Shown one piece after another: positions 27,776 through 55,603 of a DNA stretch of 64,000 nucleotides; within the stretch, counting starts at the first letter, position 1; each line of letters opens with the position of its first letter. Origin of the DNA: Flavobacterium sp. 90 (lineage in GTDB: Bacteria; Bacteroidota; Bacteroidia; Flavobacteriales; Flavobacteriaceae); the NCBI RefSeq assembly GCF_004339525.1, contig NZ_SMGE01000001.1, positions 4,030,001 to 4,094,000 on the forward strand, in the 5' to 3' direction. The notes under the pieces were generated by a model that was not told where the DNA came from, ran no database searches, and saw only the letters and a program-made list of their open reading frames with translations. A program made the translations under genes and the position numbers.

Positions 27776-27806
27776 TAAGTATAAATACTTATATTTGTAA
27801 TAAGTA
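27776..27806 (+). promoter_or_regulatory. moeA operon promoter with 10-bp phased TAAGTA/TACTTA boxes
   Basis: TAAGTA (27776), TACTTA (27786) and, downstream, TAAGTA (27801). The second box overlaps the -7 element TATATTTG (27790-27797). No TTTG is found at the -33 place (27767-27770). Similar layouts precede the nas, nrt2 and nirB genes. Confidence 0.65.
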
Positions 27807-27833
27807 TTTATTGCAGTAAATAAAATAGCAACC

Positions 27834-29006
27834 ATGATTCAAGTTGAACAAGCATTATCAATTATTGCAGAGAATAGCACAAACATGCCAATTCAGAAAA
27901 TACCAGTGCGTCAGGCATTGGGATACATTTTGGCAGAAACAATTTATTCTCCCATCAATATGCCGCCATTTCGGCAATCGGCAATGGATGGATATGCTTT
28001 TATTCACAGTGAAAGACATCAATACGATATTGTTAGTATTTCACAAGCCGGAGATCATTCTAATATAAAGATAAATCCAAACGAAGCAGTCCGCATTTTT
28101 ACTGGTGCTTTTGTGCCTCATAATGCTGATACGGTTGTAATGCAGGAACATGTAATGGCAAATGAAAAATCAATTTTGATTACTAATATGCCTAAACAAT
28201 TTGCAAATGTTCGAAATAAAGGAGAGCAAATTGAAAAAGAAGATGTTGTCTTTGAAGCCAATACTTTGATTACACCGGCAGCAATTGGATTTTTGGCCTG
28301 TCTGGGAATTACAGAAATTGAAGTTTATAAAAAGCCGAAAGTGGCCATTTTAGTAACAGGAAATGAATTAGTAAAGCCCGGAAAAAAATTACCAAAAGGG
28401 AAAATTTACGAAAGTAATTCAGTGATGTTAGAAGCAGCACTTCAAACAATTGGAATAAAAAAGACAAAAGTTTATAAAGTAAAAGACAGCCTGAAAGCTA
28501 CTAAAAAAGCACTTAAAGGAATTTTAGATAAATATGATATCGTTTTAATTTCAGGTGGAATTTCTGTTGGAGATTACGATTTTGTAAAAGAAGCGTTATT
28601 AGAAAATGGAGTAGAAGAGCTTTTTTATAAAATCAATCAGAAACCCGGAAAACCAATGTTTTTTGGATCTAAAAAGGAAACTTTAGTATTTGCGTTACCG
28701 GGAAATCCTGCTTCCTCACTTACTAATTTTTACGTTTACGTTTATCCTGCAATAAAAAACAGAATGGGATTCTCGGATACACATTTGCCAAAAATTGTTC
28801 GGAAATTAAACTCAGGTTTTACCAATACAACTGGAAAAACATTGTTTTTAAAAGCGTTATACGATCAAACAAATGTGACAATTCTGGAAAGCCAAAGTTC
28901 AGCAATGCTCAATACTTTTGCGATTGCAAATAGTTTATTAATTGTTCCAAGTGATGTAGAAACCTTAAAGAAAGGACAGCTTGTAACATTATTACCAATT
29001 GATTAA
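27834..29006 (+). CDS. moeA: Molybdopterin molybdotransferase MoeA
   Basis: A 390-residue protein that inserts molybdate into adenylylated molybdopterin. Family marks: PPFRQSAMDGYAF (about 45-57), IFTGAFVPHNADTVVMQE (about 87-104), NKGEQIEKEDVVF, and the MoaB-like core VAILVTGNELVKPGK ... SGGISVGDYDFV ... KPGKPMFFG ... ALPGNPASS. First gene of a nine-gene Moco and siroheme operon. Its promoter carries the same boxes as the nitrate assimilation genes, so cofactor supply is likely tied to nitrate use. Confidence 0.96.
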   Translation: MIQVEQALSIIAENSTNMPIQKIPVRQALGYILAETIYSPINMPPFRQSAMDGYAFIHSERHQYDIVSISQAGDHSNIKINPNEAVRIFTGAFVPHNADTVVMQEHVMANEKSILITNMPKQFANVRNKGEQIEKEDVVFEANTLITPAAIGFLACLGITEIEVYKKPKVAILVTGNELVKPGKKLPKGKIYESNSVMLEAALQTIGIKKTKVYKVKDSLKATKKALKGILDKYDIVLISGGISVGDYDFVKEALLENGVEELFYKINQKPGKPMFFGSKKETLVFALPGNPASSLTNFYVYVYPAIKNRMGFSDTHLPKIVRKLNSGFTNTTGKTLFLKALYDQTNVTILESQSSAMLNTFAIANSLLIVPSDVETLKKGQLVTLLPID

Positions 29007-29139
29007 TAAGAATTAGAAAATTAGGCAATTAGAAAAATAGATAATTGAAATATGAAATGCGGTATGTAAAATTAAACATACAGCATAAACAAACTTGAAA
29101 CTTGAAACAAAGAAAACCTGAAACAAAATAAAAAAACGA

Positions 29140-29886
29140 ATGCAGTTACTTAGTTCCGAAAATATCTTATTATTCAGTTTTGCCTTAATCGTGATTGCTT
29201 TTTTATATTCTAGTGTTGGGCACGGCGGAGCATCGGGATATTTAGCATTGATGACCATTTTTGCTTTTCCGGTTGCAATTATGAAACCATCGGCTTTGTT
29301 GCTTAATTTGTTTGTTTCGAGTATTTCGTTTTTCTTTTATTATAGAATGAATTATTTCAAGCCAAAATTGTTTTATCCTTTTGCAATTGCATCGGTTCCA
29401 GCGGCATTTATTGGTGGTTTTATCACTTTGGATAATGCTATATATAAAATTATTTTGGGAGCTGTATTGGTTTTTGCGGCGTTAAGATTGTTTGGAGTAT
29501 TTAATTTTAAAGAAAAAGAAGCGGTTCAGATAAACTTACCTTTTGCATTAGCGATAGGATTTATTATAGGGTTATTATCTGGAATGTTAGGTATTGGTGG
29601 AGGAATTATTCTAAGTCCTATTTTATTGTTTTTAGGATGGGCTTCAGTAAAAGAATCGGCTGCGATATCAAGTTTATTCATTTTTGTGAATTCATTTGCC
29701 GGAATGTTGGGTTTCTTTCTAGGAGGAAAAACAATTCCAACAGAAAGTTTTTATTTGGTTCCGATTGCTGTTATCGGAGGAGTTTTAGGTGGATTTTATG
29801 GAAGCGGTTATTTCTCTAATAAAACATTGAAAATGGTTTTAGGAGCAGTTATCCTAATGGCAAGTATAAAGTTGATTTTTCCATAA
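29140..29886 (+). CDS. TauE/SafE (TSUP) family membrane exporter
   Basis: A 248-residue protein with about eight helices and the duplicated TSUP signature: SSVGHGGASGYLALM (about 24-38) in the first half and LSGMLGIGGGIILSP (about 147-161) in the second. TSUP proteins export sulfite, sulfoacetate or related anions. In a Moco/siroheme operon it could handle sulfite, nitrite or molybdate-related anions; which one is open. It lies 133 nt after moeA, with a repeat-like spacer. Confidence 0.88.
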   Translation: MQLLSSENILLFSFALIVIAFLYSSVGHGGASGYLALMTIFAFPVAIMKPSALLLNLFVSSISFFFYYRMNYFKPKLFYPFAIASVPAAFIGGFITLDNAIYKIILGAVLVFAALRLFGVFNFKEKEAVQINLPFALAIGFIIGLLSGMLGIGGGIILSPILLFLGWASVKESAAISSLFIFVNSFAGMLGFFLGGKTIPTESFYLVPIAVIGGVLGGFYGSGYFSNKTLKMVLGAVILMASIKLIFP

Positions 29887-29983
29887 ATTGAAATAAATGA
29901 TATAATTGAATCATGCAAATTCTAAGGTTGAAACCTCCGGCAATGCTAGAAAAACGAGTAAAAAGATGCTATATAAAACATAG

Positions 29984-30003
29984 CCCAAGGTTTTAACCTT
30001 GGG
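29984..30003. repeat. CCCAAGGTTTTAACCTTGGG palindrome
   Basis: Perfect 20-bp palindrome followed by ATTTT. It may act as a weak terminator after the TSUP gene but belongs to a dispersed repeat type (AAGGTTGAAACC nearby at 29922). Confidence 0.5.
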
Positions 30004-30083
30004 ATTTTAGATAATATGTTGAAAAAACAAGATTGGTAAAATCTGAAACCTGAAACAAAGAAAACCTGAAACAAAAAATATTC

Positions 30084-30656
30084 ATGGAAACTCTAACAGT
30101 ATTTATTCTTTGCGGTGGAAAAAGTTCCCGAATGCAGTCAGAAAAAGGACTTGTTTTGTTCCAGAATAAACCATTTATAGAACATATAATTAAGGCTATT
30201 TTGCCTATTACAGATAAAATAAAATTAGTAACAGCAAATAAAGAATACAATTATTTGCCTTATGATAAAATTCCGGACACGGTTACAGACAAAGGACCTT
30301 TAGGAGGTATTTATACCGCTTTGACAGATTCTGAAACCGAGTTTAATTTGATTCTTAGTTGCGATATTCCGTTAATTTCAACCGAATTATTATCAGAACT
30401 AATTTCAAAACATAATCAGGAAGCCGAAATTACGGTTTTTGCTTCCGAAAGCAGAATGCATCCATTAATTGGGATTTATTCGAAAAAATTAATTTCCGTT
30501 ATCAAAAGCGCAATTGATAACGATGATTTAAAAATGATGAATTTAATTGCAAAGATTCCGCATCAAATCATCACAATAGAAGAAAGTGAAAACTTTCATT
30601 TGACCAATATTAATTCGATAGACGAATTAAACGATCTGAATATTAATTTAAGTTAA
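30084..30656 (+). CDS. mobA: Molybdenum cofactor guanylyltransferase MobA
   Basis: A 190-residue nucleotidyltransferase that adds GMP to Moco. The GTP-binding LCGGKSSRMQSEKGLV (about 8-23), DKGPLGGIYTAL (about 71-82) and CDIPLI magnesium site (about 96-101) are intact. It makes the MGD form needed by both molybdenum enzymes in this window. It ends 5 nt before the methyltransferase gene. Confidence 0.93.
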   Translation: METLTVFILCGGKSSRMQSEKGLVLFQNKPFIEHIIKAILPITDKIKLVTANKEYNYLPYDKIPDTVTDKGPLGGIYTALTDSETEFNLILSCDIPLISTELLSELISKHNQEAEITVFASESRMHPLIGIYSKKLISVIKSAIDNDDLKMMNLIAKIPHQIITIEESENFHLTNINSIDELNDLNINLS

Positions 30657-30661
30657 TAATT

Positions 30662-31453
30662 ATGAAAGGCTTAAAAACACCCAGATTAACAATTGTAGGC
30701 GCAGGTCCTGGAGATGTTGAACTAATTACCTTAAAAGCAATAAAAGCACTGGAAAATGCTGATGTTGTTTTGTACGATGCATTAGTTAATGAAGAACTAT
30801 TGCAATATGCAACAAATGCAGAAATTGTTTTCGTGGGAAAACGCTTGGGCTGTCATGCTTATACACAAGATCAGATCAATGAATTGATTGTTTCGATGGC
30901 AAATCGTTATGGTCATGTCGTGCGATTAAAAGGTGGAGATCCCTTTATTTTTGGACGAGGAAGTGAGGAAATTGAATATGCAGAACACTATAATTTAGAA
31001 ACGGCAATGGTTCCGGGAATTTCGTCTGCTTTAGGTGTTCCGGCTTCGGTTGGTATTAGTTTGACACAACGCCAGATCGCCGAAAGTTTTTGGGTAATTA
31101 CAGGAACAACTTCAAATCACGAATTATCTAAAGATGTGCATTTAGCCTCAAAATCAGCTGCAACGGTCGTGATTTTAATGGGAATGCATAAATTGGAGGA
31201 AATTATAGCTATTTATCAAGAAAACCGCACGGATGATTTGCCAATTGCGATTATCCAAAACGGAACAAAAAATACAGAGCAAAAAGTAGTAGGAACTATA
31301 AGTTCAATTGCTAAATTAGTATCTGAAAATAAGATTTCATCGCCGGCAATTATTGTAATTGGCGAAGTGGTGAAAAATACCTCAAGATTAACCTCTTATT
31401 TTCAGGAGCATTTTGAGGACGAATTTATCTTTCAGAATTTAAATTTAAAATAA
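30662..31453 (+). CDS. cobA: Uroporphyrinogen-III C-methyltransferase
   Basis: A 263-residue SUMT enzyme that methylates uroporphyrinogen III to precorrin-2 for siroheme. SAM-binding VGAGPGDVELITLKA (about 11-25), DALVN, RLKGGDPFIFGRG (about 80-92) and VPGISSALGVPA are present. It is the short form without the CysG dehydrogenase/chelatase part, which must be encoded elsewhere. Siroheme is the cofactor of NirB in this window. Its stop overlaps the moaD start by one base. Confidence 0.94.
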   Translation: MKGLKTPRLTIVGAGPGDVELITLKAIKALENADVVLYDALVNEELLQYATNAEIVFVGKRLGCHAYTQDQINELIVSMANRYGHVVRLKGGDPFIFGRGSEEIEYAEHYNLETAMVPGISSALGVPASVGISLTQRQIAESFWVITGTTSNHELSKDVHLASKSAATVVILMGMHKLEEIIAIYQENRTDDLPIAIIQNGTKNTEQKVVGTISSIAKLVSENKISSPAIIVIGEVVKNTSRLTSYFQEHFEDEFIFQNLNLK

Positions 31454-31689
31454 TGATTGAGATTAAATATTTTGGAGCTGTCGCCGAAAAAACGAAATGT
31501 GAGTTTGAGAAAGTTTCTTTTTCAGATATATCATTGGAGGAATTATTATTGGATTTAGAAAAGAAATATCAGTTTGAATCACTTTCATTTAGTGTGGCAA
31601 TCAATCAAAAAATAGTACCAAAGGGAACAGGTTACAAATTACAAACAAGTGATGTTGTAGCTTTATTGCCTCCTTTTGCCGGAGGATAA
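31453..31689 (+). CDS. moaD: Molybdopterin synthase sulfur-carrier subunit MoaD
   Basis: A 78-residue ubiquitin-like protein ending in Gly-Gly (PPFAGG), the end that is adenylylated and thiocarboxylated. IEIKYFGAVAEKTKCEFE at the start and VALLPPFAGG at the end are typical. TAATG links it with the upstream gene. Its activating enzyme is encoded 11 nt downstream and its partner MoaE two genes on. Confidence 0.94.
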   Translation: MIEIKYFGAVAEKTKCEFEKVSFSDISLEELLLDLEKKYQFESLSFSVAINQKIVPKGTGYKLQTSDVVALLPPFAGG

Positions 31690-31700
31690 TATAAAATTTC

Positions 31701-32771
31701 ATGAATACATCAGAACGCTATAATCGACAAATAATTCTTCCGGAGATTGGAGAAATTGGACAACAGAAATTAACAAAGGCTAAGGTTTTAATTATCGGAG
31801 CTGGTGGTTTAGGTTCGGCTGTATTGCCTTATTTGGCGGCTGCTGGTGTTGGAGAAATTGGAATTGTAGATAATGATGTTATTGAGATTTCGAATTTGCA
31901 CAGACAGGTAATTTATAAGAGTTCTGCAGTTGGAAAGTATAAAGCTGATGAAGCTAAATTGATGATTTCTGAGTTGAATCCGCTAGTTAAAGTTCAGACA
32001 ATTACGGAGAGATTATCGGCAAAGAATGCGATTTCATTATTCGAAAAATATGATATTATTGTTGATGCAACAGATAATATTGCTATTAAATATTTGATTA
32101 ACGACGGTTGTATAATTACAAACAAACCAATGGTTTATGGATCTATATTTAGATTTCAAGGTCAGGTTTCAGTTTTTAATTATCATAACGGACCAACTTA
32201 CAGATGTTTATATCCGGATGAAAATACACAATCTGCTAATTGTGAAGATGCTGGAGTAATTGGGATTTCAGTTGGAATTATAGGAATGCTTCAAGCCAAT
32301 GAAGTTATCAAAATGATTTTGGAAATTGGAAATGTTTTAAGCGGTAAAATATTGGTGTATAATATTCTAAATAATGATCAGCAAAAATATGATTTCGAAA
32401 AGAATACTGATATCGTAATAGATAAAATAGTTTTCGAGGAAAAATATAAAGAAGTTAAAAATCATGTTGAAGAAATTTCTGTGAATGAAATTCTGAGTGA
32501 AATTGATAATGCTGAAGTTCTTTTTTTAGATGTTAGAAACGAAGATGAAGTTCCAAGAATAAATTTCAGGAACGTAATTCAGATTCCGCTTTTAAATTTA
32601 GAAAATGAAATAGAAAAACTGGATAAAAACCAAACTATTTATGTTTTCTGTCAATCCGGAATAAGAAGTAAAATCGCAGTCGAATTGCTTCAAAAACATC
32701 AGTTTAGAAACATAAAAAGTGTTGTCGGTGGTGCTTTAGCATTCAATAAAATATTAAAAGAAAAAGTATAG
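31701..32771 (+). CDS. MoeB/ThiF-like adenylyltransferase with C-terminal rhodanese domain
   Basis: A 356-residue fusion. The E1-like domain (about 1-240) has RYNRQIILPEIG, the nucleotide loop GAGGLGSAVLPYLAAAGVG (33-51) and DNDVIEISNLHRQV. A rhodanese domain (about 265-356) follows, with an intact CQSGIRSK active loop. It should adenylylate the MoaD terminus and probably deliver the sulfur as well, as in MOCS3-type fusions. No second sulfur-carrier protein is seen nearby, so MoaD is the likely partner. Confidence 0.92.
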   Translation: MNTSERYNRQIILPEIGEIGQQKLTKAKVLIIGAGGLGSAVLPYLAAAGVGEIGIVDNDVIEISNLHRQVIYKSSAVGKYKADEAKLMISELNPLVKVQTITERLSAKNAISLFEKYDIIVDATDNIAIKYLINDGCIITNKPMVYGSIFRFQGQVSVFNYHNGPTYRCLYPDENTQSANCEDAGVIGISVGIIGMLQANEVIKMILEIGNVLSGKILVYNILNNDQQKYDFEKNTDIVIDKIVFEEKYKEVKNHVEEISVNEILSEIDNAEVLFLDVRNEDEVPRINFRNVIQIPLLNLENEIEKLDKNQTIYVFCQSGIRSKIAVELLQKHQFRNIKSVVGGALAFNKILKEKV

Positions 32772-32772
32772 C

Positions 32773-32940
32773 CACAGATTTTACAGATTAAAAAGATTAT
32801 AAATTTGTTAGCCACCAATTACACAAATTAGCAGGAATTAATTTTTAATAATTATTAAGCATAAAAAAATTAGTGAAAATTAGTGCAATTCGTGGTAAAA
32901 GAAAAAATCATTTTAATCCATATAATCCGTGGCAAAAAAA
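32773..32940. repeat. Nested inverted repeat of GCCACAGATT / AATTCGTGG type
   Basis: GCCACAGATTTTACAGATTA opens and ATCCGTGGC closes the block; inside it lie ACACAAATTAGCAGG and GTGCAATTCGTGG arms. Relatives lie at 58325-58390, 59810-60030 and 61009-61215. It interrupts the Moco operon without coding capacity. Confidence 0.6.
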
Positions 32941-32949
32941 TAAAAACAA

Positions 32950-33387
32950 ATGAGCAAAAATGTATTTGTAGAAGGACCAATTTCTCCTGAATTTATAGCA
33001 GAATCGATTGCAAAACACCAATCAAAACATACGATTGGTGCGCATAATATTTTTTTAGGGCAAGTTCGTGCTGATGTTATTCATGATAATACAGTTGTCG
33101 CAATTGATTATTCGGCTTATACGGATATGGCAAACGAGGCTTTGTACACAATTCGAGAAAAAGCTTTTGCTAAATTCGATTTAACCTGTATGCATATTTA
33201 TCACAGTTTAGGTGTAGTAAAAGCGGGTGAAATTTGTTTGTTTGTATTTGTTTCGGCAACCCGACGTAAACAAGTTTATGAAGCGACAGAAGCTATCGTA
33301 AACTGGATCAAAACAGATGTGCCGATTTTTGGAAAAGAAATGTTTGAAAACGATACATTCACCTGGAAACAAAACAATAATGGTTGA
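32950..33387 (+). CDS. moaE: Molybdopterin synthase catalytic subunit MoaE
   Basis: A 145-residue protein. HTIGAHNIFLGQVRADV (about 28-44), an IDYSAYTDMANEA segment, the ICLFVFVSATRRKQVYEA stretch and the C-terminal catalytic lysine region WIKTDVPIFGKE are all family marks. With MoaD it turns cyclic pyranopterin into molybdopterin. Its last eight bases overlap the start of moaC-mogA. Confidence 0.94.
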   Translation: MSKNVFVEGPISPEFIAESIAKHQSKHTIGAHNIFLGQVRADVIHDNTVVAIDYSAYTDMANEALYTIREKAFAKFDLTCMHIYHSLGVVKAGEICLFVFVSATRRKQVYEATEAIVNWIKTDVPIFGKEMFENDTFTWKQNNNG

Positions 33388-34294
33388 TATTACGCATAAA
33401 ATAAGTACTTTAAGAACTGCAACAGCAACGGCAATAGTCAAAGTTAGTAAACAGGAAACAATTGATGCTGTGGTAAATAATCTGGTACCAAAAGGAAACG
33501 TGCTTGAAATGGCAAAAACTGCGGGATTATTTGCAGTGAAAAATACCCATTTATCAATTCCGGATTGTCATCCAATTCCTATTGAATTTACTTCAGTAGA
33601 ATATAAAATTGAAGGTTTGACAATTGAGATTATTTTCAATGTAAAAACGGTTTATAAAACCGGAGTTGAGGTCGAAGCAATGCACGGCGCATCAATTGTT
33701 GCGTTGACAATGTACGATATGTTGAAACCAATTGATAAAGAAATCGAAATTTCGACTATTAAATTAATAAACAAAGAAGGCGGAAAATCGTCTTTCAAAA
33801 ATAAATTTCCAAACGTAATTAAAGCTGCGGTTTTTGTTTGCTCGGATTCAATTTTTGCAGGAGATAAAGAAGATCGTTCCGGAAAAATTATAGTTGAAAA
33901 ATTAACTTCTTATGGAGTAGAAGCGGCGCATTATGAAATTATTCCAGATGAATTTGATATTATTCAGGAAAAAACAAAAGCTTTCGCCAAAGAACATCAA
34001 CTAGTTATTTTTACGGGAGGAACCGGATTATCTCCAAGAGACGTTACGCCGGAAGCATTGTCGCCACTGCTTGAAAGCAGAATTCCTGGAATCGAAGAAG
34101 CAATCAGGGATTACGGACAACAAAGAATGCCGTATGCGATGTTATCAAGAACAGTTGCAGGAACATTAGGAAAAAGTTTGGTTTTGGCTTTGCCGGGATC
34201 AACAAACGGTGCAAGAGAATCTATGGATGCTGTTTTTCCGCATGTAATGCATGTTTTTCATATTTTAAAAGGTAAAAATCATGACACCCTCTAA
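33380..34294 (+). CDS. MoaC-MogA/MoaB fusion (cyclic pyranopterin synthase and molybdopterin adenylyltransferase)
   Basis: Start set at the ATG at 33380 (MVDITHK), overlapping moaE by 8 nt. Of 304 residues, the first about 150 are MoaC: KGNVLEMAKTAGL, LSIPDCHPIPIE and TGVEVEAMHGAS carry the active-site histidines and lysine. YDMLKPID replaces the common YDMCKAVD. The rest is MogA/MoaB-like: CSDSIFAGDKEDRSG, TGGTGLSPRDVTPEA and ALPGSTNGARESMDAVFPH. The fusion joins the second and the adenylylation steps of Moco synthesis. It overlaps moaA by 14 nt. Confidence 0.93.
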   Translation: MVDITHKISTLRTATATAIVKVSKQETIDAVVNNLVPKGNVLEMAKTAGLFAVKNTHLSIPDCHPIPIEFTSVEYKIEGLTIEIIFNVKTVYKTGVEVEAMHGASIVALTMYDMLKPIDKEIEISTIKLINKEGGKSSFKNKFPNVIKAAVFVCSDSIFAGDKEDRSGKIIVEKLTSYGVEAAHYEIIPDEFDIIQEKTKAFAKEHQLVIFTGGTGLSPRDVTPEALSPLLESRIPGIEEAIRDYGQQRMPYAMLSRTVAGTLGKSLVLALPGSTNGARESMDAVFPHVMHVFHILKGKNHDTL

Positions 34295-35288
34295 AACCAT
34301 TTTAACGGATGATTTTGGGCGAAAACACAATTATTTGCGTATTTCGTTACTAGAGAAATGCAATTTGCGTTGTACGTATTGCATGCCTGCTGACGGAATT
34401 GCATTGTCTCCAAAAGCTAGTTTAATGACAGCAGATGAGATTTTTGATTTGGCCCAAATTTTCGTAGAAAATGGTGTAGATAAAATAAGATTAACAGGCG
34501 GAGAACCTTTGCTGAGAAAAGATTTTCCTGAGATTGTATCTAAATTATCGACCTTAAATACTTCGCTTTCAATTACTACAAATGGTATTCTTATTGATCG
34601 TCATATTGATGTTTTGAAGCAAGCCAATATTAAAAAAATCAACTTAAGTTTAGATACTTTAATTGCTTCTAAGTTTAACTCTATAACGTTAAGAAATCAG
34701 TTTGAGAAAGTAATTGATAATATGCATTTACTTCTTAATAATGATTTTCATGTAAAAGTAAATGTGGTTTTAATAAAAAGATTTAATGATAACGAAATAA
34801 TCGATTTTATTAAATTAACTCAGTTTTTGCCTATTTCGATTCGGTTTATTGAGTTTATGCCTTTTGCCGGAAACCAGTGGGACAGAAGTAAAATGGTATC
34901 TCAAAATGAAGTTTTATCGGAACTAGAAAAAGCTTTTTCATCCCAAGAAATTCTTAAGCTTGAAGACGAAAAAAACTTTACCGCCAGAACTTATAAAATA
35001 AAAGACTTTCTGGGAGATTTCGGGATTATTAGTTCGATTACAAATCCGTTTTGTGATGGTTGTAACCGAATCCGCCTGACGGCAAACGGGAAAATAAAAA
35101 ATTGTCTTTTCTCTCATTCTGAGACCGATTTATTAACGCCTTTTAGAAATGGCGAATCTATCACGAATTTGATTTCGGAATCTATTAAAAGCAAGAAAAA
35201 AATCAGATCAGGAATGGTTAGTATTTCTGAAATGGATGATCCAAAACTTCATTTTGATAATCGCAGTATGATTGCGATTGGAGGATAA
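34281..35288 (+). CDS. moaA: GTP 3',8-cyclase MoaA (radical SAM)
   Basis: A 335-residue enzyme for the first step of Moco synthesis. The radical SAM cluster motif CNLRCTYC has cysteines at 27, 31 and 34, and RLTGGEPLLR binds SAM. The C-terminal second cluster is NPFCDGCNRIRLTANGKIKNC. It ends in Gly-Gly, which is essential in characterised MoaA proteins. Last gene of the operon; it overlaps the moaC-mogA gene by 14 nt, which suggests translational coupling. Confidence 0.95.
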   Translation: MTPSKTILTDDFGRKHNYLRISLLEKCNLRCTYCMPADGIALSPKASLMTADEIFDLAQIFVENGVDKIRLTGGEPLLRKDFPEIVSKLSTLNTSLSITTNGILIDRHIDVLKQANIKKINLSLDTLIASKFNSITLRNQFEKVIDNMHLLLNNDFHVKVNVVLIKRFNDNEIIDFIKLTQFLPISIRFIEFMPFAGNQWDRSKMVSQNEVLSELEKAFSSQEILKLEDEKNFTARTYKIKDFLGDFGIISSITNPFCDGCNRIRLTANGKIKNCLFSHSETDLLTPFRNGESITNLISESIKSKKKIRSGMVSISEMDDPKLHFDNRSMIAIGG

Positions 35289-35323: not shown

Positions 35324-35356
35324 ATCTTTGTCAAAGTTTAAAACTTTGACAAAGAT
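35324..35356. repeat. ATCTTTGTCAAAGTTT palindrome (33 bp)
   Basis: Perfect 16-bp arms around one base, after moaA. Same repeat type as 7369-7399 and about 49690-49715. It may also end the moa transcript, although the T run is short. Confidence 0.65.
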
Positions 35357-35420
35357 AGCGTATTGTTTAGTGGTTGCTTCGTTCCTCGCAATGACAAACC
35401 AAATCTAAAAGTTTTTGCAT

Positions 35421-36375: not shown

Positions 36376-36402
36376 TAAGTACACTTATTATATTTGTACT
36401 TA
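36376..36402 (+). promoter_or_regulatory. SRPBCC operon promoter with TAAGTA/TACTTA boxes
   Basis: TAAGTA (36376-36381), -7 element TATATTTG (36389-36396) and TACTTA (36397-36402). No TTTG lies at the -33 place. The phase differs by one base from the moeA promoter, so this is a weaker member of the group. The rest of the gap 36062-36423 shows nothing clear. Confidence 0.45.
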
Positions 36403-43114: not shown

Positions 43115-43146
43115 CAAAAATAAGTATTTTTACGTATAAATACGTA
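43115..43146 (-). promoter_or_regulatory. nas promoter with three phased TACGTA/TACTTA boxes
   Basis: Minus-strand -7 element TATTTTTG (43115-43122). Hexamers start at 43121 (TACTTA on the minus strand), 43131 (TACGTA) and 43141 (TACGTA), exactly 10 bp apart; the first shares its TA with the -7 element. The -33 TTTG is absent. The start codon is about 70 nt downstream. Confidence 0.7.
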
Positions 43147-43236
43147 ATTTTTGAAGTTTTATTTTAAGTTTTTGTGTAAAAAATAAAATGAGAATTGTAA
43201 AAGGTAAGATGAGAGAATATAGTAGAGAGTCAGTTC

Positions 43237-43264: not shown

Positions 43265-43279
43265 ATGATGTGGGTAAAT

Positions 43280-47110: not shown

Positions 47111-48589
47111 TTAATTTCGGTCAATTACCTTGGCTAAAATTGGTTGCTTTTCGTTCATGATTTTTGTTATAGTATAATGCATCCAAATCAGACAAAGGGC
47201 TGAAAATATAAAGATAAAAATCCATGAACTCGACCAGATTCCAGTTGCGGTCAGCAAATATCCAAAAATTATCGGACCAAAAAATCCGCCTAAACCACCA
47301 ATCATTCCTACCATTCCGCCAACAACACCAATTTCAGTCGGGAAGTATTCTGGAATATGTTTGTAAACTGCTGCTTTTCCAATTCCCCATGAAATACCGA
47401 TAAGAATAACCAGAACCAGAAAAACCCACATATTAGCATCGAATTTAATTACCGTAATTCCTTTTGCAAGCAGCTCTTTCTTTTTTACAGTTTGGTTTTG
47501 CTCGACTACAACTTGCTGCCATGAAGTTTTAGTTGGCAAGATAGCATTTTCATTTGTATTCTCTTTTTTCTGAGCTACTGCAAAATCAGTTTCTCCAATT
47601 TTAATTTGTTCGTTTGAAACAGAAGTAATTATTCCTTTTTTAGTGGCCAGAACGCCCGGACCAGTTGTAGTAATCTCCATCTTCGGAATCATTAGTAAAG
47701 CACTTAAAATTACTGACGAACTTAAAACCCAATACATCACTTTTCTGGCTCCGAATTTATCTGATAAGTAACCACCAAAAGCTCTGATTACGCCCGACGG
47801 TAAACTAAAAAGCGTTGCAAATAATCCACCCATAACCAGACTGGTTTGATAAACGTTCATAAAGTTGGGTAAAAGCCATTGTGAATAAGCGACAAAACAT
47901 CCGAAAACTAAAAAGTAGTATGCTCCAAAACGCCAAACTCTGGCAGATTTTAAGGATTGTAACATTTGAGAAATGGTTTTGGTATTGTTTTCTATTTTTT
48001 TGTTTGTAGCAAAAATTAAAAATGCAATTCCAATAATGACTAAAGCGACTCCATAAATAACAGGAAGTATTTTCCAGCCGTTTTGAGGATCATTAATAGA
48101 GAAATGATTCAATAACGACGGCGCTAAAAAAGTTGTAATGGCAGCTCCGGCATTTCCCATTCCGAAGATTCCGAGAGCGCGTCCCTGCCATTCTTTTGGA
48201 TACCAAATTGAGGTATAGCCAATCCCAACGGCAAAACTGGTTCCAACCATTCCGAATAAAAAACTTAAGATTGCAAACGTTATAAAGCTATCAGCAAAAG
48301 GCAATAAAAATAGAGGAATCGAACAGAGCAGAAGTAAAAGCGAAAAGACATATTTACCGCCATATTTATCCGTAAGTATTCCAATTGGTAAACGCATGAT
48401 TGAACCGGTTAAAATTGGAATTCCAAGAAGCCAGCCAACTTGCACAACACTCCAATTGAAAATGCCGTTGTCAACCAAAAAAGTTACCAATACACCGTTT
48501 AATGTCCAACAAGCAAAACATACGGTGAAGGCTAAAGTATTCAAAAATAAAATCTTGTGTGATTGTGATAAAGAGTTTGTATTTTTCAT
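47111..48589 (-). CDS. MFS nitrate/nitrite transporter with periplasmic insert (copy 2)
   Basis: A 492-residue NarK/NrtP-type carrier closely resembling the protein at 19749-21224 along its length, including the nitrate signature GIGYTSIWYPKEWQGRALGIFGMGNAGAA and the extra loop domain between helices 9 and 10 (VVVEQNQTVKKKELLAKG). The loop is the most divergent part, but its end is strongly conserved. It is controlled by the phased boxes just upstream and followed by a porin. It probably supplies the assimilatory nas/nir system. Confidence 0.92.
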   Translation of the reverse strand: MKNTNSLSQSHKILFLNTLAFTVCFACWTLNGVLVTFLVDNGIFNWSVVQVGWLLGIPILTGSIMRLPIGILTDKYGGKYVFSLLLLLCSIPLFLLPFADSFITFAILSFLFGMVGTSFAVGIGYTSIWYPKEWQGRALGIFGMGNAGAAITTFLAPSLLNHFSINDPQNGWKILPVIYGVALVIIGIAFLIFATNKKIENNTKTISQMLQSLKSARVWRFGAYYFLVFGCFVAYSQWLLPNFMNVYQTSLVMGGLFATLFSLPSGVIRAFGGYLSDKFGARKVMYWVLSSSVILSALLMIPKMEITTTGPGVLATKKGIITSVSNEQIKIGETDFAVAQKKENTNENAILPTKTSWQQVVVEQNQTVKKKELLAKGITVIKFDANMWVFLVLVILIGISWGIGKAAVYKHIPEYFPTEIGVVGGMVGMIGGLGGFFGPIIFGYLLTATGIWSSSWIFIFIFSALCLIWMHYTITKIMNEKQPILAKVIDRN

Positions 48590-48609: not shown

Positions 48610-48641
48610 CAAATGTAAATACTTATAAGTATAAATACGTA
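48610..48641 (-). promoter_or_regulatory. nrt2 promoter with phased TATTTA/TACTTA/TACGTA boxes
   Basis: Minus-strand -7 element TACATTTG (48610-48617). Hexamers start at 48616, 48626 and 48636, again 10 bp apart, with the outer one TACGTA. TACTTATAAGTA forms an inverted pair of heptamers at 48620-48631. No -33 TTTG. Confidence 0.7.
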
Positions 48642-48754: not shown

Positions 48755-49414
48755 TTATAAAAGCGAATATTCTGTGGCTTTGTTCGAAAGTTCCATTAAA
48801 TTCTTCACTTTAAGCTTTTTCATTAGATTAAAACGGTGTACTTCGGCAGTTCGCTTGCTAATTTCCAGAGCTTCAGCGATTTCCTTGTTGCCTTTTCCGG
48901 ATAATAAAAGCGTTAGAATTTCTTTTTCTCTTTTGGTAATCATCATTTCTTCGCCTAAATTTTGTTTAGGTTCCAAAGATGTTGAAACATTCGTTAATTG
49001 ACTGATTAATATTGACGAAATATCTCCGCTGAAATATTTTCCGCCCGCAGCAACAGTATGCAGTGCTTTCAGGAATTCTTCTTTGCTTGAACCTTTAAGT
49101 AAATAACCATCGGCACCAGCCTTGATAGATTTCAATACGTATTCTTCAGATTCATGCATCGAAAGCATAATAATTTTTACAGTATTACTTTCGCTTCTAA
49201 GTTTTTCTACTACCTCGATACCTGTTAAATTAGGCATACGAATATCTACTATAAGTAAATCCGGTTTGCTGGCTGTAACAACTTCAAGAGCATCGGCTCC
49301 ATCAATAGCTTCGCCTACAACCTCAATGTTTGCTTCGTTTTCCAGTAAAGATTTTATTCCATCTCTTACAAATACATGATCATCTGCCAGAACTACTCGA
49401 ATATTATTGCTCAT
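48755..49414 (-). CDS. NarL/FixJ-type response regulator
   Basis: A 219-residue protein. The receiver domain (1-120) has acidic residues DD (11-12), phospho-acceptor Asp 57 (LLIVDIRMPN) and a conserved Lys in LLKGSSKEEF. The LuxR-type helix-turn-helix (about 153-210) has LTKREKEILTLLLSGKGNKEIAEALEISKRTAEVHR. It is encoded 342 nt downstream of a NarX-like sensor kinase on the same strand, which is its probable partner. The TACTTAT heptamers at nearby nitrate promoters fit the NarL consensus TACYYMT. Confidence 0.93.
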   Translation of the reverse strand: MSNNIRVVLADDHVFVRDGIKSLLENEANIEVVGEAIDGADALEVVTASKPDLLIVDIRMPNLTGIEVVEKLRSESNTVKIIMLSMHESEEYVLKSIKAGADGYLLKGSSKEEFLKALHTVAAGGKYFSGDISSILISQLTNVSTSLEPKQNLGEEMMITKREKEILTLLLSGKGNKEIAEALEISKRTAEVHRFNLMKKLKVKNLMELSNKATEYSLL

Positions 49415-49442: not shown

Positions 49443-49481
49443 TACGTATATTCATCTAAAAAGAAGATGCTAAGATACGTA
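49443..49481 (-). promoter_or_regulatory. Two TACGTA hexamers upstream of the response regulator
   Basis: TACGTA at 49443-49448 and 49476-49481. The second sits in an AATTACGTAT context shared with the nas and nrt2 promoters. The spacing (33 bp) breaks the 10-bp rule and no clear -7 element was found, so autoregulation is only suggested. Confidence 0.35.
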
Positions 49482-49489: not shown

Positions 49490-49740
49490 AATTTTTTTAT
49501 AATTAGATAATTTGTCAATTAGAAAATATCTTGATAAGATAATATGCCAATTAGATAATTAGATAATTCGTTGTAGACTTTTGTCTATTTTCTTTTTTTA
49601 AGAGAGGTTTTGTTTTTTTGTCATCTCGATCCCGAAGCTTCGGGAGAGAAATCACACAAGTAGATCGACAAAGATTGCGAAAACCTTTGTCAAAGTTCAA
49701 AACTTTGACAAAGGTCTGCGTGTAGAAAATTATCTAATTG
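49490..49740. repeat. Repeat-filled gap between kinase and regulator genes
   Basis: AATTAGATAATT words recur at both ends (49500-49570 and 49728-49755). Between them lie a CCCGAAGCTTCGGG palindrome within a GTCATCTCGAT-type unit (from 49620) and a TTTGTCAAAGTTC palindrome (about 49690-49715). No coding frame is seen. Confidence 0.55.
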
Positions 49741-49756
49741 ACTAATTAACTAATTC

Positions 49757-51562
49757 TCAAATAGGAATATTAAAAGTAATCCTCGTTCCTTCGCCGGGAA
49801 TCGATTTAATAAAAACGCGTCCGTTGATGTATTGAATTCTTTCTTTCATGAATAATAATCCCATTCCGGATTCGCTGTTGCGTTTTTTGTCGACCGCATG
49901 TATATCAAAACCTTTACCGTTGTCGTCTACAATAATGCTTAGCAAAGTATCACTGTGCGAAAGCTGCACAATAATATGCGACGATTCAGCATATTTTATG
50001 GCATTGTTTATCGCTTCCTGAGTTAAGCGATAAATATTGATTTCGATTAGAGAATCCAGACGTTGGTTAAAATCGGTTTTGTTGTAAAACAGAATTTCTT
50101 TTCCTGTTAATTTCGAAAGTTCCTGCGTAAGTTTTGCGAGAGAAGAAACAATACCATGATCGCTTAATTCCGGTGGCATCAGATTGAAAGTTGCCGTTCG
50201 AACACCTTTGATGATATCAAGCGATAATTTTTTTAAATATTCTATTTTTTGAGCCGCTTTTTCTTTGTCTTCCAGGTTAATACTTTCTAAACTGAATTTT
50301 AATCCCGTAAGCATTTGACCAATTCCGTCGTGAATTTCTTTGGCAATTCGGTTTTGTTCGTTTTCCTGATTTTCGACAATTTTGCTGGAAATAATCTTTT
50401 GCTGATTGATTTTTTCAGTGCTGTTTTCAATGTTCAAGCGTTCAACTTCTCGTTGGGCTTTTTTGCGTTCCGTAATGTTAAAACAAACAATTAAAAGTTC
50501 TAATTCGTCCTTTTTAATCATTACCGGAACCATCGATAAATCAAGCCAGATCGTTTGCGCTTCCTTATTAATGATCTTGATTTCGCCTTGCCAGCCGCTT
50601 CTTTGTTTTTCAAAAATAATACGGTCAATATTAAGCTGCTCTTTTTCGTCAGTCGTCAATATTTCTGAGAATTTCTTGTTAGAAGAAAACTTGGTATAAT
50701 TTAAAAGTTTGGCAAATTTTTCTCCAACATGAATAATCGAACCATCAGGAGCAATGCGGCAATAAAGCAACGTATTTTCCATTGCATAATTGAGCGATTT
50801 TAATTCTTTTACCGAATTTTCTTTGATTTCACTGATAATTTCTGTGTCGTGCGCCAGTTTTAAAGCTTTCTTTTCAGAAGATAAAAGTTTCGCGATCAGT
50901 TTTTCGATTTTCTTATTTGTAGGTCTGAAAATGAATAAAAATTCTAAAAGCAGAACTAAAAGAGTAAAACCAAAAATCCAATATTCGATCTTACGTTGTT
51001 CCGTAACTTTTTCGTGAGCTTCGAGATCGTATTGTGTTACGATCTGATTCATTTTCGAAAGGAAAACACCTTCGTTTTCAAGAACAAGCTGAACCAGTTT
51101 TTGATTATTGGTTAAGTTATTTTTCTGTTCTAAATTTAGAAGAAATAAATCAGTTGTTTCAGCGATTGTTGTGAAATTGGGTTTTATTTCACGATATAAT
51201 TTTGTCAGTGTTTCGCTTTTTTCTTTTGGAAAAGCCAAACTATCACTGCCATTTTCTAAGGCATTTTGAGTAGTTTTCCAAAGAGATAAAACTTCCTTTA
51301 AATGCGAAATTTTTTGTGGAGAAACATTAGTAGAAACATAATTCAAAATCAATATTTCTTTGACAATTTTTTGGCTCAGCATTCTTTGCTTTCCCGAAAT
51401 ATTGATGATTTTAGAATCGCTTAATTGTTGTTTTAGATTGTATTGAACCAAAAACTGACTTAAAATGATGGTTATAGCAATCGTCAGAAGTGCAAAAAAA
51501 TACAGACGGCGTAAATTTTTGAAAGTGATTTTATCTGCAGCTTCCTGATTGTTTTTTTTCAT
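49757..51562 (-). CDS. NarX-like nitrate-sensor histidine kinase
   Basis: A 601-residue membrane kinase. TM1 (about 20-40) and TM2 (about 188-208) enclose a PilJ/NarX-type periplasmic domain that begins with IINISGKQRMLSQKI (52-66). This matches the P-box of NarX/NarQ, with Arg 60 in the place of the nitrate-binding arginine. A PAS domain (about 260-370) follows, then HisKA_3 with the phospho-histidine in AKEIHDGIGQ (about 413) and a GHKL ATPase (EAINNAIKYAES, DDNGKGFD, GMGLLFMKERI). It should sense nitrate or nitrite and phosphorylate the regulator at 48755-49414. Confidence 0.9.
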   Translation of the reverse strand: MKKNNQEAADKITFKNLRRLYFFALLTIAITIILSQFLVQYNLKQQLSDSKIINISGKQRMLSQKIVKEILILNYVSTNVSPQKISHLKEVLSLWKTTQNALENGSDSLAFPKEKSETLTKLYREIKPNFTTIAETTDLFLLNLEQKNNLTNNQKLVQLVLENEGVFLSKMNQIVTQYDLEAHEKVTEQRKIEYWIFGFTLLVLLLEFLFIFRPTNKKIEKLIAKLLSSEKKALKLAHDTEIISEIKENSVKELKSLNYAMENTLLYCRIAPDGSIIHVGEKFAKLLNYTKFSSNKKFSEILTTDEKEQLNIDRIIFEKQRSGWQGEIKIINKEAQTIWLDLSMVPVMIKKDELELLIVCFNITERKKAQREVERLNIENSTEKINQQKIISSKIVENQENEQNRIAKEIHDGIGQMLTGLKFSLESINLEDKEKAAQKIEYLKKLSLDIIKGVRTATFNLMPPELSDHGIVSSLAKLTQELSKLTGKEILFYNKTDFNQRLDSLIEINIYRLTQEAINNAIKYAESSHIIVQLSHSDTLLSIIVDDNGKGFDIHAVDKKRNSESGMGLLFMKERIQYINGRVFIKSIPGEGTRITFNIPI

Positions 51563-51628: not shown

Positions 51629-52213
51629 TTACAATCCTAAAGATGCTTTTATTAAGTTTAAGTTTTCTTCAGAATAACTAATTTTTAAGGCTTCCTGATG
51701 TCCTTTGTCAGACATTTTATCCCAGGTTTTTTTGATGATATTTTTTAGTTTTTCTTCGTCGTGCTTGTGCACAAAAGGATCTAAGTAATATTCCAGAAAT
51801 ACCAAACAAATTACGTCTTCAAGTAATTGAGTTTCGGCATCTTTTTTAAGTAATTTCTTTTCGATTAAAAACGAAACACGGTCAATAAACTCTTGCGAAT
51901 ATCCTGCTTTTTCTAAGATTCCTGCGGTAGTTTTGGCGTGGAATTTTTTAAGTTCTTCGCGCCATTTCAAATATCCAACACGATCCATTGGATAAGATTC
52001 TCTCGCGACTTTCCATCGGCAAATATGTTGTGCTTTTGACGCAATCTGAATTTCTTCTGAAGCTTCAGGTTCAAATTGCATTAATCTTTCGTACATCCTG
52101 TTTGAATATAATAATTCCTTAGGATATTCGACATTTTGGTCGATTTCGATATTCGGATCCTGAGCATTTTCTGCATCAATCCATTCGCTTGCTTTTTGAA
52201 AAGGTGTGTTCAT
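51629..52213 (-). CDS. DUF4202 protein linked to nitrite reductase
   Basis: A 194-residue soluble protein fitting the DUF4202 family: FQKASEWIDAENAQDPN at the start, YSNRMYERLMQFEPEASEEIQIASKAQHICRW (about 36-67) and YPMDRVGYLKWREELKKFHA. Conserved His and Asp residues in helical repeats suggest an HD-like helical fold, but no reaction is known to me. It lies 144 nt downstream of nirD on the same strand and may share its transcript. Confidence 0.8.
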   Translation of the reverse strand: MNTPFQKASEWIDAENAQDPNIEIDQNVEYPKELLYSNRMYERLMQFEPEASEEIQIASKAQHICRWKVARESYPMDRVGYLKWREELKKFHAKTTAGILEKAGYSQEFIDRVSFLIEKKLLKKDAETQLLEDVICLVFLEYYLDPFVHKHDEEKLKNIIKKTWDKMSDKGHQEALKISYSEENLNLIKASLGL

Positions 52214-52357: not shown

Positions 52358-52744
52358 CTAATCTAGAAAACCTACAAACACTTCGTTTTCTACTACTTTA
52401 ACCGGATATGTTGCAATTTTAAAATCATCTCCATTTAGGTTTGAACCGTCTACTAATGAGAATGTTTTTTTGTGCATTGGACAGGCGATTTTTGGGATAT
52501 CATCTGTTGAACCGGTCATTCCTCTTGCGAGAACCATTTCCATTTTATGCGGACAGGCATTTTGGCAAGCGTACCATTCGTTGCGACGTGCAAAATTGAA
52601 AATGGCGATTTGTTTGTTTTTATATTTGATGCAACCGCCACGGTTGGTTGGGAAATCTTCTATTTTTCCGGCTTTGAACCAAATTGTTGCATCACTTGGG
52701 TGAACGGTTTCATATTGATTTAAGATTTCTTCCATTGGATTCAA
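52358..52744 (-). CDS. nirD: Nitrite reductase small subunit NirD (Rieske-like)
   Basis: A 128-residue Rieske-fold protein. Unlike many NirD proteins it keeps both ligand pairs: ACPHKME (Cys and His) and ACPMHKKTF (Cys and His), so it may hold a real 2Fe-2S cluster. Its mate NirB is 277 nt upstream on the same strand. The long gap, with no clear promoter, leaves open whether it has its own start. Confidence 0.88.
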   Translation of the reverse strand: MNPMEEILNQYETVHPSDATIWFKAGKIEDFPTNRGGCIKYKNKQIAIFNFARRNEWYACQNACPHKMEMVLARGMTGSTDDIPKIACPMHKKTFSLVDGSNLNGDDFKIATYPVKVVENEVFVGFLD

Positions 52745-53021
52745 ATTTTAGTTTCCTGTTTCTTATCCCTCTTTTTACAATCAAGAGAGTTATGATGGCG
52801 CAGTAAAAAAGAGGGTAAGAGGACAGCAAACGTTAGTGATATTATTTTTCTTTTTTTTGGAGCTGGATTTTTGTAATTAAAAATTGAGAATTAAAAATTA
52901 AAAATCTTTGAAACTGCAATTTTTATAATAACTATACTATGTTTATTTAAACAAGTGAAACGCCTTTTTTGAGTTCATAAAATCTATGTTTCTATGTGTT
53001 TAAATAATTATGTATAAAGCT

Positions 53022-55535
53022 TTACGACCACGCTTTTGGCGCTTTTTGATCTCTTAATGGAACAAAAACAACATTATCATCTTTCTCTTCAGAGTTTACA
53101 AAATGGTTAAAGCGTTTCAATAATCTTGGTTTTTCGAGAACTTGTTTCCATTCACATTCAAAAGTATTTACAAGAGTCTGCATTTCGGCTTCAAGCGTTT
53201 CGCAAATTCCTAAACTATCTTCGATTATTACTTCTTTTAAGTACTCTAAACCTCCGTCTAGTTTTTCCAGCCAGGTTGCTGTTCTAACAAGCGGACCAGC
53301 CGTGCGGATGTAATACATTAGGTATCGATCCATGTATTTTATAACGGTTTCTTTGTCGATTTTCTCGGCCAATAAAACCGCATGTTTAGGATTTGCGCCA
53401 CCATTTCCGGCGATATACAAATTCCAACCGCCTTCAACTGCAATTAATCCAAAATCTTTTCCGCGAGCTTCGGCACATTCACGAATACAAGCTGAAACAC
53501 CACCTTTAAGTTTGTGAGGAGAACGAATTCCTTTGTATCTGTTTTCTAATTCTATGGCAAATCCGGCGCTGTCGTCCATTCCGTAACGACACCAAGCATT
53601 TCCTACGCAGCTTTTTACAGCACGAAGTGATTTTCCGTAAGCGTGTCCGCTTTCAAAACCATTATCGATTAATATTTTCCAGATTTTTGGCAAATCACTT
53701 AAATGTGCTCCGAACAAATCGACACGTTGCGCTCCGGTAATTTTAGTGTATAAATCAAACTGTTTGGCAACTTCTCCAATCACGATTAATTTCTCGGCAG
53801 TAATTTCACCTCCGGCAACTCTTGGAACTACAGAATAAGTTCCGTTTCGTTGAATATTAGCTAAGAATCTATCGTTTGTATCTTGAGTTGTAACATGTTT
53901 GTTTGCAGTGTCATTATAAATACTCGAGAAAATCGAAGCTACAACAGGTTTACAAACCTCGCAACCATCGCCTTTACCATGATGATCGATAACTTCGTAG
54001 AAATTCTCGTATTTATTGATTTTTACCAAATCGAATAATTCCTGACGTGTATAGCTAAAATGCTCACAAATAACATCTTTTACTTCTTTTCCTAATGATT
54101 TTTGAGTGGCTTTTACCAAATCAGAAACCATTGGTTTACAACCTCCACAACCAGAAGTAGCTTTGGTATGTTTGACAACATCTGAAAAATTGGAACAAGT
54201 TTCATCCAGAAGCGAACAGCAAATTGAACCTTTAGTTACATTTTCGCAAGAACAGATTACTGCTGTGTCTGGCAAATCAAGAACGCTTCCTAAACTTGAA
54301 CCTTCTGAACCATCACGAGAACCTAAAATCAAATCTTCGGGATTTTTTGGCAACGCCATTGCATTACTGTAAATCTGAAAAAGTGAATTGTAATCACTGG
54401 AATCTCCAACTAAAATTCCGCCTAATAAAGTTTTAGAATCTTTGGTAACATTGATTCTTTTATAAATTCCGCTTAGTTTATTTTCATAAATGATCGCTGT
54501 TACATCGTTATTTTCGACAAAAGGATCACCAAAACTCGCAACTTCAACACCAATTAATTTCAATTGTGTCGACATATCGATGGTTTCTCTCATGGTTTTA
54601 GAACCATTTAAGATTTGCTCAGCGGCTACATCGGCCATTTCGTAACCCGGAGCAACAAGTCCGTAAATATTTTGATTGTACAGAGCAACTTCGCCAATCG
54701 CAAAAATAGAAGGATCTGATGTTTGCATTTGATTGTTTACCACAACGCCGCCTCGCAAACCAACTTCAAGACCGGAAACTCGGGCTAATTCATCGCGAGG
54801 TTTAATTCCGGCAGAAATAACCAACATGTCTACTTTTAACAATTCGTCGTCAGCAAACATCATTCCCGTTATACGTTCTTTACCGTCGATATATTGTGTT
54901 GCTTTATTGAGATGAATTCCAATATTTAATTCTTCGATTTTAGATTGCAACATATCGCTGGCGCCTTTGTCTAATTGTCTAGGCATCAATCGCGGAGCAA
55001 ATTCTACAACATGAGGATTCAATCCTAAATCACGAACGGCTTTTGCTGCTTCAAGACCTAATAAACCCCCGCCTAAAACTGCCGCTTCGGTTGCACCTTT
55101 TTGTTTTATTTTTTTGGCGTAAGCCATAATTGCATCCAGATCTTCGATAGTTCTGTATACAAACACGCCTTCTTTTTCGACACCATCAATAGGAGGAACG
55201 AATGCCGAAGAACCCGTTGCAAGAACTAAGTAATCGTACGTATGTGTTTTTTCTAAATGCGTATGTATTGTTTTTTCTTCACGATTAATATCTGTAATTA
55301 ATTCAGAAGTATTTAGAGTAATGTTGTTTTGTGCGTACCATTCAGTAGTAGATAACGAAAGGTCATCTGCAGTTTTTCCTCCAAAGTATTCACTTAAATG
55401 AACTCTGTCATAAGCGCGTCTGGGTTCTTCGCCAAAGACTGTAATCTGATACTTTTCCTGTCCTGATTTTGCGACGAATTTTTCGCAAAATTTATAACCA
55501 ACCATGCCGTTTCCAACTACTATTACTCTAATCAT
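53022..55535 (-). CDS. nirB: NADH-dependent nitrite reductase large subunit NirB
   Basis: An 837-residue assimilatory nitrite reductase making ammonium in the cytoplasm. An FAD/NADH part (about 1-400) has VVGNGMVGYKFCEKF, ATGSSAFVPPIDG, AVLGGGLLGLEAAKAV and FAIGEVALY. Two BFD-like 2Fe-2S segments follow (CSCENVT ... GCGGCKP and CEHFSYTRQELF ... GCEVCKP). A siroheme/4Fe-4S half closes it, with the ligand pairs CVGNAWC and CIREC. The length is normal. The promoter carries phased boxes; siroheme comes from the cobA-type gene at 30662. Confidence 0.96.
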   Translation of the reverse strand: MIRVIVVGNGMVGYKFCEKFVAKSGQEKYQITVFGEEPRRAYDRVHLSEYFGGKTADDLSLSTTEWYAQNNITLNTSELITDINREEKTIHTHLEKTHTYDYLVLATGSSAFVPPIDGVEKEGVFVYRTIEDLDAIMAYAKKIKQKGATEAAVLGGGLLGLEAAKAVRDLGLNPHVVEFAPRLMPRQLDKGASDMLQSKIEELNIGIHLNKATQYIDGKERITGMMFADDELLKVDMLVISAGIKPRDELARVSGLEVGLRGGVVVNNQMQTSDPSIFAIGEVALYNQNIYGLVAPGYEMADVAAEQILNGSKTMRETIDMSTQLKLIGVEVASFGDPFVENNDVTAIIYENKLSGIYKRINVTKDSKTLLGGILVGDSSDYNSLFQIYSNAMALPKNPEDLILGSRDGSEGSSLGSVLDLPDTAVICSCENVTKGSICCSLLDETCSNFSDVVKHTKATSGCGGCKPMVSDLVKATQKSLGKEVKDVICEHFSYTRQELFDLVKINKYENFYEVIDHHGKGDGCEVCKPVVASIFSSIYNDTANKHVTTQDTNDRFLANIQRNGTYSVVPRVAGGEITAEKLIVIGEVAKQFDLYTKITGAQRVDLFGAHLSDLPKIWKILIDNGFESGHAYGKSLRAVKSCVGNAWCRYGMDDSAGFAIELENRYKGIRSPHKLKGGVSACIRECAEARGKDFGLIAVEGGWNLYIAGNGGANPKHAVLLAEKIDKETVIKYMDRYLMYYIRTAGPLVRTATWLEKLDGGLEYLKEVIIEDSLGICETLEAEMQTLVNTFECEWKQVLEKPRLLKRFNHFVNSEEKDDNVVFVPLRDQKAPKAWS

Positions 55536-55561
55536 GATTTCTTTAATTAAGTATTACTACG

Positions 55562-55603
55562 CAAATATAAGTATTTGTACTTATAAAAATACGTATTTAG
55601 GTA
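55562..55603 (-). promoter_or_regulatory. nirB promoter with phased TACTTA boxes
   Basis: Minus-strand -7 element TATATTTG (55562-55569). TAAGTA/TACTTA hexamers start at 55568 and 55578, and TAGGTA at 55598, all in 10-bp phase; TACGTA at 55590 is out of phase. No -33 TTTG. The start codon lies about 27 nt downstream. Confidence 0.65.

Follow-up and report, generated by a model that had tools for sequence, protein, structure and literature searches.

A palindromic operator overlapping the -7 box may unite nitrate assimilation and molybdenum cofactor genes in one regulon in Flavobacterium sp. 90 and its relatives

The NarX-NarL and NarQ-NarP systems act through 7-2-7 sites in which two heptamers converge (TACYYMT-N2-AKRRGTA), and NarL contacts its DNA through K188 and K192. 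MerR-type activators bind inside the spacer of the promoter, at an operator whose register to the core elements is strict. For FixJ, the part of the source available here gives the sites as GTAMGTAG and the 16-bp fixK site TAAGTAATTTCCCTTA, with protection from -69 to -44 and from -57 to -31 (PMC4999443). A class of Bacteroidetes nitrate-sensing histidine kinases has been described with the architecture sensor-TM-PAS-DHp-CA (TM, transmembrane), without HAMP or GAF and with nitrate genes nearby, and the accessible portion of this 2021 review treats its signalling as an open question (PMC8199190). The present work concerns a 64-kb stretch (the window) of the 6.65-Mb genome of Flavobacterium sp. 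90 (contig NZ_SMGE01000001.1, positions 4,030,001 to 4,094,000), which encodes a NarX-type kinase, a neighbouring response regulator and genes of nitrate assimilation, and in which several promoters carry the same palindromic operator.

The hexamers TACTTA, TACGTA and TAAGTA, which the initial annotation of the window had described as a promoter code with 10-bp steps, are the halves of a 16-bp palindrome, TAMGTA-N4-TACKTA, with additional half-sites one helical turn away. Six perfect copies are present in the window and none occurred in 100 dinucleotide-preserving shuffles; the whole genome holds ten, six of them in this window, which makes up about 1 % of it. Five of the six lie in the promoters of moeA, nas (two overlapping copies), nrt2 and nirB, and the sixth (55227) lies inside nirB (Table 1). 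At these four promoters the innermost hexamer, degenerate in the case of nrt2, has its TA in common with a TAnnTTTG -7 box as had been proposed, and a single operator links nirB and nas to nitrate transport and to the supply of molybdenum cofactor (Moco). The 10-bp step holds at nas, but the outer hexamer of nirB stands 12 bp from the next one.

A scoring matrix built from 54 sites, all from other genomes, gave its five best scores in the window (17.3 to 33.8 bits, the moeA site being the highest) to moeA, nas (two sites), nirB and nrt2, with 43131 and 48626 matching against the direction of the gene; in gene direction 48626 reaches 14.6 and 43131 reaches 7.6, which places them at ranks 6 and 8. 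The highest score across 20 Markov-shuffled windows was 13.3. There is no perfect palindrome upstream of the regulator gene of the window. The loose pattern WAMGTAWNNWTACKTW was uninformative genome-wide, with 18 matches against 22 for its reversed control. No description of the operator was found among the top matches (title and start of abstract) in the openly licensed PubMed Central literature, which is not proof of absence.

The cross-genome comparison strongly supports the idea of a regulon. In a set of 149 genomes of the family, NirB was found at E 1e-200 in 31, and in the same 31 genomes the kinase matches with E values no higher than 4.4e-102, the next match falling to 2.7e-32; with a threshold of E 1e-45, a single match to the regulator was obtained in each of them. 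A perfect palindrome stands upstream of nirB in all 31, followed by TAnnTTTG at offset +14 in 25 and by a one-mismatch box there in four, while in the remaining two the -7 box begins at +25, behind a third hexamer. The 22-mer TAMGTAWNNWTACKTANNTTTG, comprising the palindrome and the -7 box, had 63 matches in the 149 genomes and its reversed control two. It is present in 28 of the 31 kinase-bearing genomes and in 3 of the 118 others, the exceptions being G024, G075 and G001 (kinase without the exact 22-mer) and G013, G042 and G085 (22-mer without the kinase). The own genus follows the same rule (three of three kinase-bearing, none of three kinase-free genomes), as does the pair G418 and G131, and in a class sample of 345 genomes the 22-mer was found in 4/6 kinase-bearing and 3/339 other genomes. 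Both kinase-bearing genomes of other families without the exact 22-mer carry palindromes near nirB (one mismatched), the regulator gene or nas. Raw palindrome counts in the 149 genomes were also higher with the kinase (median 8 against 1), but the 22-mer was preferred because the reversed control differs slightly as well (3 against 2) and some kinase-free genomes hold many copies of what appear to be other elements.

Two observations stand apart from the nitrate genes. The kinase-free genomes G130 (19 palindromes), G107 and G059 hold many TACGTAGTTCTACGTA-like palindromes, apparently other elements and, so far as inspected, without relation to nitrate genes. In the own genome an orphan exact 22-mer (G000:C1:2797171-2797192) lies between a LysR-type helix-turn-helix open reading frame and TonB receptor on one side and the leucyl-tRNA synthetase gene on the other, and its neighbour genes show no visible tie to nitrate.

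The kinase-anchored loci of relatives yielded 83 distinct palindromes, 5 coding and 78 noncoding. The operator sits in the promoter spacer at a fixed register, in the manner of MerR-type operators: the -7 box begins at offset +14 from the palindrome in 40 of the 78 noncoding copies (the corresponding count of 60 for all loci is inflated by those selected with the 22-mer) and never at +12, +13 or +15 to +17. A second group of 19 palindromes, mainly at regulator genes, has the box at +22 to +26, and six have it at -15 or -16. For Flavobacterium psychrophilum the sigma-A box is placed at -12 to -5 in the part of the report available (PMC9723704), and the main operator class therefore lies at about -26 to -11.

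Around 41 main-class promoters 81 extra half-sites were counted, where shuffles gave 8.6 on average and 18 at most. Their positions follow a period of 10.75 bp with a resultant of 0.69, the largest value of 2000 random sets being 0.36. The half-sites thus lie on one helix face, as the initial annotation had suggested, with a step closer to 10.5-11 bp than to its 10 bp. It had also claimed that the -33 element is missing. TTG at the expected distance was indeed found in only 2 of 61 motif promoters, but since few control promoters have it either (8/53; Fisher p 0.04), this absence is weakly distinctive; these figures, the logo of the 61 promoters and the 54-site matrix include loci selected with the 22-mer.

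The palindrome is very probably bound by the response regulator encoded beside the kinase, the only one among the DNA-binding proteins compared that is found together with the operator in each of the 31 genomes. Its recognition helix follows RTxExHRFN in all 31. The helix belongs to the type RTVEVHRxN known from FixJ, whose sites also contain TAMGTA, and the binding domain alone matches EsrB with 50.8 bits, FixJ with 41.8 and NarL with 33.1 at best. At the M position of the half-site C was found in 34 of 122 half-sites of kinase-anchored loci with an EVHR helix and in 24 of 34 with ETHR or EAHR; the helix variant tracks the third base of the half-site, which fits direct reading, although it is confounded with clade.

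The initial annotation had read TACTTAT as the NarL heptamer TACYYMT, and a canonical NarX-NarL system acting on such heptamers agrees with this resemblance and with NarL being the best solved match of the full-length regulator. It is nevertheless very improbable, as the palindromes of the window have TAC innermost and their heptamers diverge, in contrast to the 7-2-7 site, the binding domain scores higher with EsrB and FixJ, and the aligned recognition helix reads TAEVHRFN here and TVKVHVKH in NarL, with E and F at the places of K188 and K192. Moreover, the regulator missed the NCBIfam cut-offs for NarL (161.7 of 250 bits) and NarP (137.7 of 343), and the kinase that for NarX (57.2 of 578). 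On this evidence a FixJ-like reading of the putative binder should replace the NarL reading.

In relatives, palindromes also adjoin an operon for an NrtA-type ATP-binding cassette (ABC) transporter, a globin-containing operon, the Moco operon and the gene of a Crp-like regulator; these members were identified by Pfam mainly in one genome, G017, and elsewhere by position, length or similarity. In several genomes moeA and the Crp-like gene are transcribed divergently from a shared intergenic region, so that a single palindrome there has an ambiguous target. Twenty palindromes, mostly in NrtA-type and globin promoters, lie on the downstream side of the -7 box. A second palindrome, HTG-N8-CAT, begins exactly 36 bp ahead of that box in 18 of 20 promoters of this type (for example L145:6979, L145:13572 and L144:4381), the same promoters from which it was derived, and in none of 61 main-class promoters. 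With the box start taken as -12 its centre falls at -41.5, the usual position of a class II Crp-type activator, and HTG-N8-CAT is likely to be such a site. An ortholog of the Crp-like regulator (54 % identity or more) is encoded in 22 of the 31 kinase-bearing genomes.

Two other proteins of the region or regulon come into question as binders: the MarR protein (37301), which lies inside the window and had been named as a rival, and the Crp-like regulator, whose gene lies near the operator in relatives. Either is highly unlikely. MarR was found at E 1e-15 in only 3 of the 31 kinase-bearing genomes (7 of all 149) and is missing in G127 of the same genus, which has operators; the Crp-like regulator is not encoded in the own genome and has its likelier site in HTG-N8-CAT. 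Somewhat more room, though still little, is left for a DNA-binding protein encoded elsewhere, with the kinase and regulator linked to the palindrome by gene content only: co-occurrence was compared for four candidates, and any gene of a nitrate-assimilating lifestyle would co-occur. The regulator, however, is encoded inside the cluster, its own gene carries the palindrome in many relatives, and its helix type matches a known similar site.

The promoter at 36376-36402, which the initial annotation had counted more weakly among the five of common design, was rejected as a member (matrix rank 404, -17 bits). This promoter of the SRPBCC-EVE-MarR operon has another inverted repeat, TAAGT-AC-ACTTA, ahead of a -7-like TATATTTG, and the repeat could be an autoregulatory MarR site.

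The kinase of the window probably senses nitrate or nitrite. It keeps the nitrate-binding G-x-x-R in the sensor helix (INISGKQRMLSQ), and N-x-x-G-x-x-R is kept in 28 of the 31 kinases; of the intact P-box claimed earlier, these nitrate residues are retained while the remainder is PilJ-like. No HAMP or GAF match was obtained with Pfam at E 0.001, and a PAS domain is present instead.

It is proposed that the NarX-type membrane kinase and the neighbouring regulator control nirB-nirD, nas, the nitrate transporter and the Moco operon as one regulon through the palindrome, with nitrate activating. A regulator dimer would bind TAMGTA-N4-TACKTA, with further dimers or half-sites joining at helical intervals. 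The main-class palindrome would occupy the promoter spacer, its last TA also serving as the initial TA of the -7 box, and nitrate would lead to phosphorylated regulator and thereby to activation; those operators that follow the -7 box, at NrtA and globin promoters in relatives, would be repressing sites. The probability of this reading as a whole is put at roughly 0.5. Activation is favoured somewhat over repression because the register with the -7 box is strict and a consensus -33 box is lacking.

With the same regulator and operator the sign could be reversed, the regulator being a repressor on the -7 box that is relieved by nitrate, with the kinase acting as a phosphatase or the unphosphorylated regulator as the repressor. 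This is a tentative but serious alternative. All operator classes overlap or flank the -7 box (about -26 to -11 in the main class, further upstream for regulator genes, and past the box in NrtA and globin promoters), so that one repressing sign would explain them all, and a FixJ protein of Rhodopseudomonas palustris, in its unphosphorylated form, represses nif genes according to the portion of the article available (PMC13327599). Occlusion, however, needs no exact register, yet offset +14 dominates. Repression is also harder to reconcile with classical nitrate kinases, the usual logic of which is phosphorylation in response to nitrate.

Several points weigh against regulation by the kinase-regulator pair with nitrate as the activating signal. 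The overlap with the -7 box is a position at which activators rarely bind, in relatives some promoters even have the operator downstream of that box, and the argument for activation drawn from the -33 region is weak. The exact 22-mer is missing in three kinase-bearing genomes of the family and two of other families, and the association tests, the 22-mer comparison included, ignore relatedness. Three of the 31 kinases lack N-x-x-G-x-x-R in what was read while the operator is kept: in G030 (L168) and G082 (L170) the motif is missing in the open frames read, and G002 was matched only from residue 197 on. The open frame of G082 has only 458 amino acids, so its sensor appears to have been replaced or lost with the operator kept.

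A more elaborate scheme, which is possible but rather doubtful, would accommodate both operator positions. A FixJ-type regulator would activate from the spacer in a MerR-like way, in fixed register with the -7 box and overlapping it, and phased dimers would wrap around the promoter. The NrtABC and globin promoters of relatives would be repressed by this protein from operators just past the -7 box, and the Crp-like regulator under its control would act there at -41.5, giving an incoherent feed-forward loop.

The features of the window are collected in Table 1. The DUF4202 gene sits between nirD and the kinase gene in each of the 31 kinase-bearing genomes examined and is strongly conserved. A near-perfect inverted repeat, GTAGAGACGCACTGCAGTGCGTCTCTAC, mobile-like or REP-like (repetitive extragenic palindromic) in appearance, was noticed at 43229-43265 between nas and neighbouring genes, and two similar REP-like intergenic stretches around TTTGTCAAAGTTyAAAACTTTGACAAAG at 35330-35360 and 49685-49715. 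The low-complexity open reading frame of 200 amino acids at 35459-36061 on the minus strand has no Pfam match; its DNA suggests a Lys/Ala-rich, histone-H1-like product.

Table 1. Operator sites and genes of the window (positions are those of the window)
Feature	Position	Strand	Details
moeA promoter	27776..27797	+	palindrome TAAGTATAAATACTTA 27776-27791, final TA shared with -7 box TATATTTG 27790-27797
nas promoter	43115..43146	-	three hexamers at 10-bp steps, forming overlapping perfect palindromes 43121-43136 and 43131-43146
nas -7 box	43115-43122	-	TATTTTTG
nrt2 promoter	48610..48641	-	perfect palindrome 48626-48641, one turn outside degenerate inner hexamer TATTTA (48616-48621)
nrt2 -7 box	48610-48617	-	TACATTTG
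nirB promoter	55562..55595	-	outer TACGTA 55590-55595, palindrome 55568-55583, -7 box TATATTTG 55562-55569
Perfect palindrome within nirB coding sequence	55227..55242		also present in both congeners examined
Isolated half-sites upstream of regulator gene	49443..49481	-	two TACGTA, 33 bp apart
Moco genes	27834..35288	+	moeA, TauE-type exporter, mobA, cobA-type methyltransferase, moeB, moaE, moaCB, moaA
NasC-type nitrate reductase (nas)	39526..43044	-	1172 amino acids, C-terminus fused to NirB-like FAD/NAD half (also called N-terminal half of NirB type)
nrt2	47111..48589	-	NarK-type nitrate/nitrite major facilitator superfamily transporter
Response regulator, proposed binder	48755..49414	-	receiver and LuxR-type domain, recognition helix RTAEVHRFN
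Sensor kinase	49757..51562	-	PilJ-type sensor with G-x-x-R, PAS, HisKA_3, HATPase
DUF4202 protein	51629..52213	-	between kinase and nirD
nirD and nirB	52358..55535	-	nirD Rieske-type

The operator would provide a concrete regulon for nitrate assimilation in Bacteroidota and a DNA target for the nitrate-sensor class without HAMP and GAF, and it would tie the supply of Moco to the use of nitrate. Its overlap with the -7 box may offer a clean case for how regulators act at Bacteroidota promoters. As a regulator with NarL as its best full-length solved match can carry a FixJ-like reading head, naming by best match misleads on specificity.

Compared with NarX-NarL and NarQ-NarP, the locus shares the HisKA_3 kinase, the PilJ/NarX-like periplasmic sensor with G-x-x-R, the LuxR-type regulator and the nitrate-gene neighbours, and it differs in the PAS domain in place of HAMP and GAF, the recognition helix, the site layout and the assimilatory targets. 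The window kinase has the architecture of the Bacteroidetes nitrate-sensor kinases, without HAMP and GAF and in the vicinity of nitrate genes, to which an operator and a putative regulon are added here, neither being given in the available part of that review (PMC8199190). With FixL-FixJ the regulator shares the recognition helix type RTVEVHRxN, and the FixJ sites, as far as the source was available, contain TAMGTA, the fixK site sharing its left half with the operator (PMC4999443), whereas the right half here is TACKTA and the main operator lies at about -26 to -11, against -69 to -44 and -57 to -31 for the regions protected by FixJ. FixL is an oxygen-sensing haem kinase with fixK as the main target of the system, in contrast to the kinase with a PilJ sensor found here, and the regulator stayed below the NCBIfam cut-off for FixJ (92.5 of 255 bits). 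MerR-type activators are alike in having the operator in the spacer in strict register, but the protein proposed here is a two-component regulator, its operator extends into the -7 box, and neither a defined -33 box nor a long spacer was shown.

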